Source of the DNA: an uncultured Halomicronema sp.
GTDB lineage: Bacteria; Cyanobacteriota; Cyanobacteriia; Phormidesmidales; Phormidesmidaceae
Length of the DNA stretch: 64,000 nucleotides
Assembly (NCBI GenBank): GCA_937899725.1
Contig: CALCCA010000065.1
Coordinates: forward strand, 1 to 64,000
Reading direction: 5' to 3'
This document shows positions 569 to 899 of this stretch, one piece after another (position 1 is the first letter of the stretch; every line of letters starts with the position of its first letter). Made by a program: the position numbers and the translations under genes. The notes under the pieces were generated by a model. It ran no database searches. It saw only the letters and a list, made by a program, of their open reading frames with translations, and had not been told where the DNA came from.

Positions 569-673
569 CGTTCACTCTCGTTTTCATCGGCGTTTCGCCA
601 GTAACGAGGACGGAAGTAGGGAAATTTCCCGAAGGAACGCGCCCCCATTTAACTTTTCGGCATTTTGGAGGCG
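569..673 (+). promoter_or_regulatory. Glutamine-I (glnA-type) riboswitch with SD-sequestering stem
   Basis: Seen: CGTTC (569-573) pairs with GAACG (635-639) as P1. P2 is CTCGTT (577-582) with AACGAG (603-608), enclosing an inner GGCG/CGCC hairpin. The junction then reads ACGGAAGTAGG (610-620), followed by a GGGA/TCCC hairpin (619-630) and GAAGGAACGCG (631-641). These junction motifs match my memory of the cyanobacterial glnA RNA, which binds L-glutamine. Directly after P1, CGCCCCCA (640-647) can pair 7 of 8 bases with TGGAGGCG (666-673), which contains the GGAGG ribosome binding site of the next gene. Inference: glutamine controls translation of the small peptide at 679-804. The switching mechanism is not deduced, because P1 and the SD stem are adjacent and not mutually exclusive. 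Confidence 0.9.
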
Positions 674-678
674 GAAAC

Positions 679-804
679 ATGCTGAGTACTTCGTTAGTTC
701 AAGGTCTAGAAATCATTGGTGTGGTCAGCGTCATGGCGACCGTGCTATCTCCCGTTCTGTGTTGGGTATTGCTAAGCCCATTCAACGCAGAGACATCGGC
801 GTAG
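679..804 (+). CDS. 41-aa hydrophobic peptide under glutamine riboswitch
   Basis: ATG at 679 follows a full GGAGG (667-671) at 7-nt spacing, and TAG ends at 804. The product begins MLSTSLVQG and has one hydrophobic segment at about residues 10-33, so it is probably a single-pass membrane peptide. It is the only gene between the glutamine riboswitch and a strong intrinsic terminator, so the three form a monocistronic unit. Related glutamine riboswitches in marine cyanobacteria (downstream-peptide motif) also precede very short ORFs, and in Synechocystis a glutamine riboswitch controls the glutamine synthetase inactivating factor gifB. This product does not resemble IF7/IF17, which are soluble and basic. 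I do not recognise the family. A nitrogen-status role is inferred only from the riboswitch. Confidence 0.78.
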   Translation: MLSTSLVQGLEIIGVVSVMATVLSPVLCWVLLSPFNAETSA

Positions 805-857
805 CGAACTGTTTAGGTCACCGGGCGCAGTCGCTCATTCTCGAAAATACCTCGTAA

Positions 858-899
858 CAGTAGCGGTCAGGGAGATTTCTCTGGCCGCTACTGATTTTT
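858..899 (+). terminator. Strong intrinsic terminator of the riboswitch-peptide unit
   Basis: A 16-bp stem (858-873 with 878-893, two G-T pairs) has a 4-nt loop and is followed by five T at 895-899. It lies 53 nt after the stop codon of the 41-aa peptide. Confidence 0.9.

Follow-up and report, generated by a model that had tools for sequence, protein, structure and literature searches.

What does a glutamine riboswitch control when the RNA that it leads appears to encode nothing but a hydrophobic peptide of 41 amino acids? The question is raised by a locus near the beginning of the window, by which we mean the entire 64,000-nucleotide stretch of DNA from an uncultured Halomicronema sp. that was analyzed. 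The original prediction described a glnA-type aptamer, a Shine-Dalgarno (SD) sequence, a short open reading frame (ORF) and a terminator, and all four elements were recovered at the coordinates and in the arrangement proposed. The aptamer, the ORF, the conservation, the pairing, the NtcA-type boxes and the terminator described below were all computed in this analysis.

A glutamine-I aptamer followed by a single ORF

When the whole window was compared with all of Rfam 15 by using cmscan, a glutamine-I (glnA, RF01739) riboswitch aptamer was found on the forward strand at positions 567 to 643, with a score of 43.4 bits (E = 3.7e-6) relative to a gathering score of 35. The match is full length (model positions 1 to 53), and an identical match is obtained with the whole genome as the search space. 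This Infernal result confirms the glnA-type assignment. Only RF01739 and one tRNA scored above threshold in the window, and a match to the downstream-peptide family (RF01704) is absent. The hallmarks of RF01739 can also be read in the sequence. The P1 stem is formed by CGTTC (569–573) and GAACG (635–639), or CGUUC/GAACG in the RNA, and is followed directly by C640, at the position of C60; the core, CGGAAGTA at 611 to 618, carries the invariant CGGAAGUA and leads into a P3 arm at about 619 to 630. Other members of RF01739 are known to bind L-glutamine (PMC6316151). The aptamer scores below those of most relatives, which counts against the interpretation that we favor, and the predicted fold of the whole leader is not significant relative to shuffled sequences (z = 0.44), so that the argument is based on the covariance model and on comparison among species.

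The start codon (ATG at 679) lies 39 nt beyond the end of P1 and is preceded by the SD region TGGAGGCG (666–673, with GGAGG at 667–671). It opens a 41-codon ORF (679–804, forward strand) that is followed by an intrinsic terminator at 858 to 899, comprising the 16-bp stem that had been proposed (858–893; −29.1 kcal/mol, z = −7.3 relative to shuffles) and the T tract ATTTTTG. Terminators were called in 26 of 28 relatives, a weak statistic because the same lax criteria match 52% of shuffled sequences. As was originally suggested, the peptide is the only evident product of the predicted transcript, and the succession of aptamer, one ORF and terminator fits this view.

Two other features were observed farther downstream. 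A 53-aa ORF on the reverse strand (1131–1292) shares about 70% identity with an equivalently placed ORF in Leptolyngbya sp. SIOISBB (L055), and thus is probably a real small gene. The downstream intergenic region (1379–1560) holds two near-identical copies of a sequence of roughly 70 bases (ATTCTTCGTAATCCGCAGGACTATCTAA...AAAGCGGTT...).

A family of one-helix microproteins and its association with the riboswitch

The encoded peptide, MLSTSLVQGLEIIGVVSVMATVLSPVLCWVLLSPFNAETSA, is modeled by AlphaFold2 as one helix spanning residues 4 to 32 (mean pLDDT 83). A search of 65 genomes from the same taxonomic family yielded 46 credible loci in 43 genomes, which were sorted by locus-by-locus reading. 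Orthologs of the window peptide, which we call group 1, make up 42 of these loci (42 of the 65 genomes) and conform to the consensus MxxTSLxxGLEIIxVVSVMxxVVSPILCWVLPDR. Three loci belong to a sister group (group 2; ELIAVISLYCxxFCPILCW), and the remaining one is a more distant paralog. Residues P25 and W29 are invariant in 39 members of the wider family, to which we refer as the PxxxW family, and members are present on GTDB contigs of Leptolyngbya sp. PCC 6406, Halomicronema sp. CCY15110, Nodosilinea sp. LEGE 07088 and Oscillatoria sp. CS-180, suggesting that the window belongs within or close to the Nodosilineaceae. Among group 1 sequences the median pN is 0.25 and the median pS is 0.65, the median pN/pS for the closer pairs is 0.33, and variability at the three codon positions is 0.20, 0.105 and 0.378. 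These values show that the ORF is under purifying selection. It is a gene, and the one-helix microproteins to which its product belongs form a genuine family that has no name. One feature of the locus under study counts against the interpretation that we favor: in the window peptide and in its nearest relative, L004, the sequence ends in LLSPFNAETSA (770–804 in the window) at the place where other group 1 members have LPDR or LPNR, and the otherwise near-invariant P32 and R34 are lost.

The peptide alone has no match in Pfam or NCBIfam at E values up to 10, and it carries neither the DUF4278 domain (YRG repeats) nor the IF C-terminal helix in those searches, in keeping with the earlier statement that it is unlike IF7 and IF17. 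Searches with the wider family against Pfam, NCBIfam and PHROGs gave nothing credible. A plasmid or phage origin was considered and rejected, as neither set of records contains a match to the peptide.

The association of this peptide with the riboswitch extends well beyond the window. With a riboswitch counted at E < 0.01, RF01739 matches end 30 to 42 nt before the start codon at 34 of the 42 group 1 loci, which indicates that the pairing is no accident of one genome. A riboswitch also is present at seven of eight group 2 loci, and a peptide of the same kind from another cyanobacterial family (L082) likewise lies behind an RF01739 match. The expectation that orthologs always follow the riboswitch therefore holds for most loci but not for all: two group 1 loci retain visible remnants (L017 and L020), and six have lost the riboswitch (L014, L018, L097, L114, L116 and L117). 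The fact that these six relatives manage without the switch counts against our interpretation, and the tie between peptide and riboswitch is not absolute. We looked specifically for a failure of the covariance model and for absence of the ORF behind orthologous riboswitches, and encountered neither.

As many as seven RF01739 copies occur in one genome of the taxonomic family examined, and almost all of the other copies retrieved precede DUF4278 genes, whose products range from 56-aa to IF17-like proteins. Thus, the peptide represents a second class of target rather than the main one. No operon partner of the riboswitch-linked peptide is conserved across genera; shared neighbors occur only within a genus.

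Predicted control by NtcA and by glutamine

Upstream of the aptamer, at positions 544 to 557, the window contains the NtcA-type box GTAATAATAGAAAC, which agrees with GTAN8TAC at five of six positions and overlaps the sequence TAATAAT. The latter could be a −10 element, although a strict sigma-70 scan called no promoter at this box. The incomplete match counts against our interpretation. Most of the related loci carry GTAN8TAC in the equivalent position, about 15 to 30 nt upstream of P1. Of 38 riboswitch leaders, 21 have a complete (6/6) box no more than 250 nt from the ATG (at another position in one of them), where shuffled leaders give an expectation of 3% per leader. Among eight leaders without a recognized riboswitch, four have the complete box and four a 5/6 version. 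The six group 1 loci that have lost the riboswitch all retain a 6/6 or 5/6 box and constitute a natural series of riboswitch loss. Persistence of the box where the riboswitch is gone is what would be expected for a gene that is repressed by NtcA and activated by glutamine, and the NtcA sites of repressed gif genes are located at the core promoter (PMC6316151).

The same genome offers a direct comparison. Its second RF01739 riboswitch (L001, contig C207:1363-1448) precedes a gifB/IF17-like gene that carries DUF4278, a same-genus homolog of which matches PF14105, and a complete NtcA box, GTAAAATTGAATAC, is located upstream of this riboswitch. The occurrence of GTAN8TAC upstream of P1 in both settings suggests that the peptide gene is wired like gifB. 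DUF4278 corresponds to the N-terminal part of IF17. A riboswitch-free paralog of the peptide, MTPEQLQGLWICLTISVSTAVICPAVLWVLPDRSAV, is encoded in the same genome (contig C41:78770-78877, L093/L268) between two small DUF4278 genes; this arrangement recurs in a near relative (G006, L267), and a DUF4278-peptide pair is found in another genus (G049, L280). Three genomes, representing two genera, have a paralog adjacent to either one or two DUF4278 genes. The NtcA boxes and these neighboring genes strengthen the link to nitrogen control, and shared regulation together with DUF4278 adjacency, seen in two genera only, is the best clue to function.

Two known systems thus far resemble this arrangement. 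The glutamine-I riboswitch of gifB/IF17 (Klahn et al. 2018, as reviewed in PMC6316151) shares the aptamer class, an NtcA-type site at the putative promoter and a small product, and the gifB-type gene of the same genome is arranged alike; the product here differs in being a one-helix membrane peptide that lacks DUF4278 and is not similar to IF7 or IF17. The downstream-peptide (glutamine-II, RF01704) RNAs of marine picocyanobacteria also are glutamine-sensing leaders before short ORFs, but they have another aptamer fold, belong to a different Rfam family and, as reviewed, control DUF4278 proteins (PMC6316151).

How might glutamine govern translation? In the predicted ligand-free fold, the segment CGCCCCCA (640–647), located just after P1, is complementary to and pairs with the SD region TGGAGGCG (666–673), which agrees with the sequestration originally envisaged. 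The pairing of CGCC(U/C)C with GAGGCG is kept in most of 34 distinct leaders, but the helix in the window includes one C·A mismatch, which counts against our interpretation, and in a subclade with CGCCAACC the helix is reduced to four base-pairs. Because the positions are mostly invariant, or partly lost as in this subclade, covariation supports the helix but falls short of proof, and we rejected its use as such.

Published structures place glutamine at the base of P1, whereupon G23 joins the P1 helix and pairs with C60, which immediately follows P1 (PMC11477058). By position mapping, C640 would be the equivalent of C60, and the predicted anti-SD helix begins with the same nucleotide. The involvement of this nucleotide in both interactions suggests how glutamine binding could free the ribosome site: the ligand would take the base from the blocking helix, and the site would open. 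Type 1 glutamine riboswitches are described as activating, like those of type 2 (PMC6316151), and glutamine-II was found to be an ON switch by GFP fusion (PMC6698751). By analogy with this published work on gifB and glutamine-II, the switch examined here is expected to turn translation ON with glutamine.

Candidate functions of the peptide

We consider it probable, taking the evidence as a whole, that the locus is a self-contained gene whose product is a one-helix membrane microprotein, that NtcA represses this gene and glutamine activates it, and that the peptide most plausibly acts to damp nitrogen uptake or assimilation; the regulatory part of this reading is strong. When nitrogen is short, NtcA would occupy the promoter and the gene would be repressed. 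When nitrogen is plentiful, the RNA would be made with its ribosome site blocked by the segment directly after P1. Glutamine would then stabilize P1 and draw C640 into a pair with the equivalent of G23 in J2/3, the blocking helix would loosen, and translation would start. The peptide would insert into the membrane and damp nitrogen uptake or assimilation beside the soluble IF17/DUF4278 proteins that are under the same switch. The original prediction of a small membrane regulator stands insofar as the peptide appears to be a genuine small membrane protein; its nitrogen-regulator or transport aspect was not borne out by homology, as our searches found no relationship to known regulators and an ammonium-transporter (Amt) helix match is at the level of chance. 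Among the functional options, the likeliest guess is a brake in the membrane that slows nitrogen uptake or assimilation under nitrogen excess, and we would assign it about an even chance.

The main rival keeps the same regulatory unit but sees the peptide as part of a photosynthetic or respiratory membrane complex, where it would serve as a structural or assembly subunit adjusted to nitrogen status and not as a regulator of nitrogen assimilation. Many one-helix subunits occur in cyanobacterial complexes, and the peptide is of similar size and shape; riboswitch-free homologs in several other cyanobacterial families also speak for such a role. However, when all PDB chains, among them those of many cyanobacterial complexes, were searched with a profile, nothing credible was found (best E = 0.96), and the family occurs only patchily across the phylum, in 18 of 386 genomes, an unusual distribution for a core subunit. 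We regard a subunit role as rather unlikely.

The sole PDB profile match, to a Mep2 ammonium-transporter helix (MTIVYCPIACWVW), could, together with the fit to nitrogen control, be taken to mean that the peptide regulates an ammonium transporter directly, either by imitating one of the transporter's helices or by packing against it. This similarity was rejected, given that an E value of 0.96 is at chance level and that the four ammonium-transporter-family proteins of the same genome score negative, and direct regulation of this kind is improbable. Still less probable is a toxin-like role, in which the peptide would act on membranes and the switch would restrain its translation. That the peptide is short and hydrophobic and that its gene has a separate terminator would suit such an element, but no antisense RNA or partner was seen, phage and plasmid records hold no match, and the conserved motif, the NtcA-type box and the paralog beside DUF4278 genes are better suited to a regulon member. 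Finally, the idea that the ORF is incidental and the leader a decayed riboswitch left over from a lost DUF4278 gene, for which one might cite the usual place of this riboswitch before DUF4278 genes and an aptamer score below those of relatives, is already contradicted by the comparative data, in that dozens of genomes have the peptide behind the switch, with a pN/pS of about 0.33 and a fixed SD spacing.

The favored reading, a glutamine-activated membrane protein gene, may have a parallel elsewhere in the phylum. In about seven other cyanobacterial families, a two-helix membrane protein family of about 72 aa, with the motif SLxFAPWxxKL and no Pfam match, is encoded right behind RF01739 riboswitches (L212, L224, L229, L238, L239, L241, L242, L245, L246, L250, L256, L257 and L264). 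Both are small membrane proteins behind RF01739, but they differ in helix number and motif (FAPWxxKL), and homology between them was rejected (profile comparison probability 0.4%). Tentatively, and at somewhat less than even odds in our view, cyanobacterial glutamine riboswitches would control, in addition to soluble glutamine synthetase inhibitors, at least two unrelated small integral membrane families. These would make up a membrane arm of the response to nitrogen excess, with a transporter or a membrane-bound assimilation complex as the target and perhaps with DUF4278 proteins as partners.

In these other families RF01739 also precedes IF7-like proteins, as well as small soluble proteins from a few families without a name. 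Three further unnamed small-protein families were observed behind glutamine riboswitches: an 89-aa family beginning MATITEQLL (L145 and L165), a family of 78 to 94 aa containing YKELELVPD (L213, L216 and L223), and one of about 60 aa containing FDFDLWATKVKRQL (L210, L226, L236, L237 and L253).

The review literature ties glutamine riboswitches mainly to DUF4278/IF17 genes, and RNA-based glutamine sensing has therefore been read as a means of switching off glutamine synthetase. In the literature that we searched, we found no report of a membrane peptide under a glutamine riboswitch. Conservation of the pairing across dozens of related species suggests that nitrogen sensing controls a membrane component besides the known soluble enzyme inhibitors. 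Riboswitch context can reveal genes that are too short for standard annotation, and the conserved membrane microprotein found in this manner, under the same switch and with NtcA-type promoter boxes and a paralog next to DUF4278 genes, points to a putative membrane branch of cyanobacterial nitrogen control.
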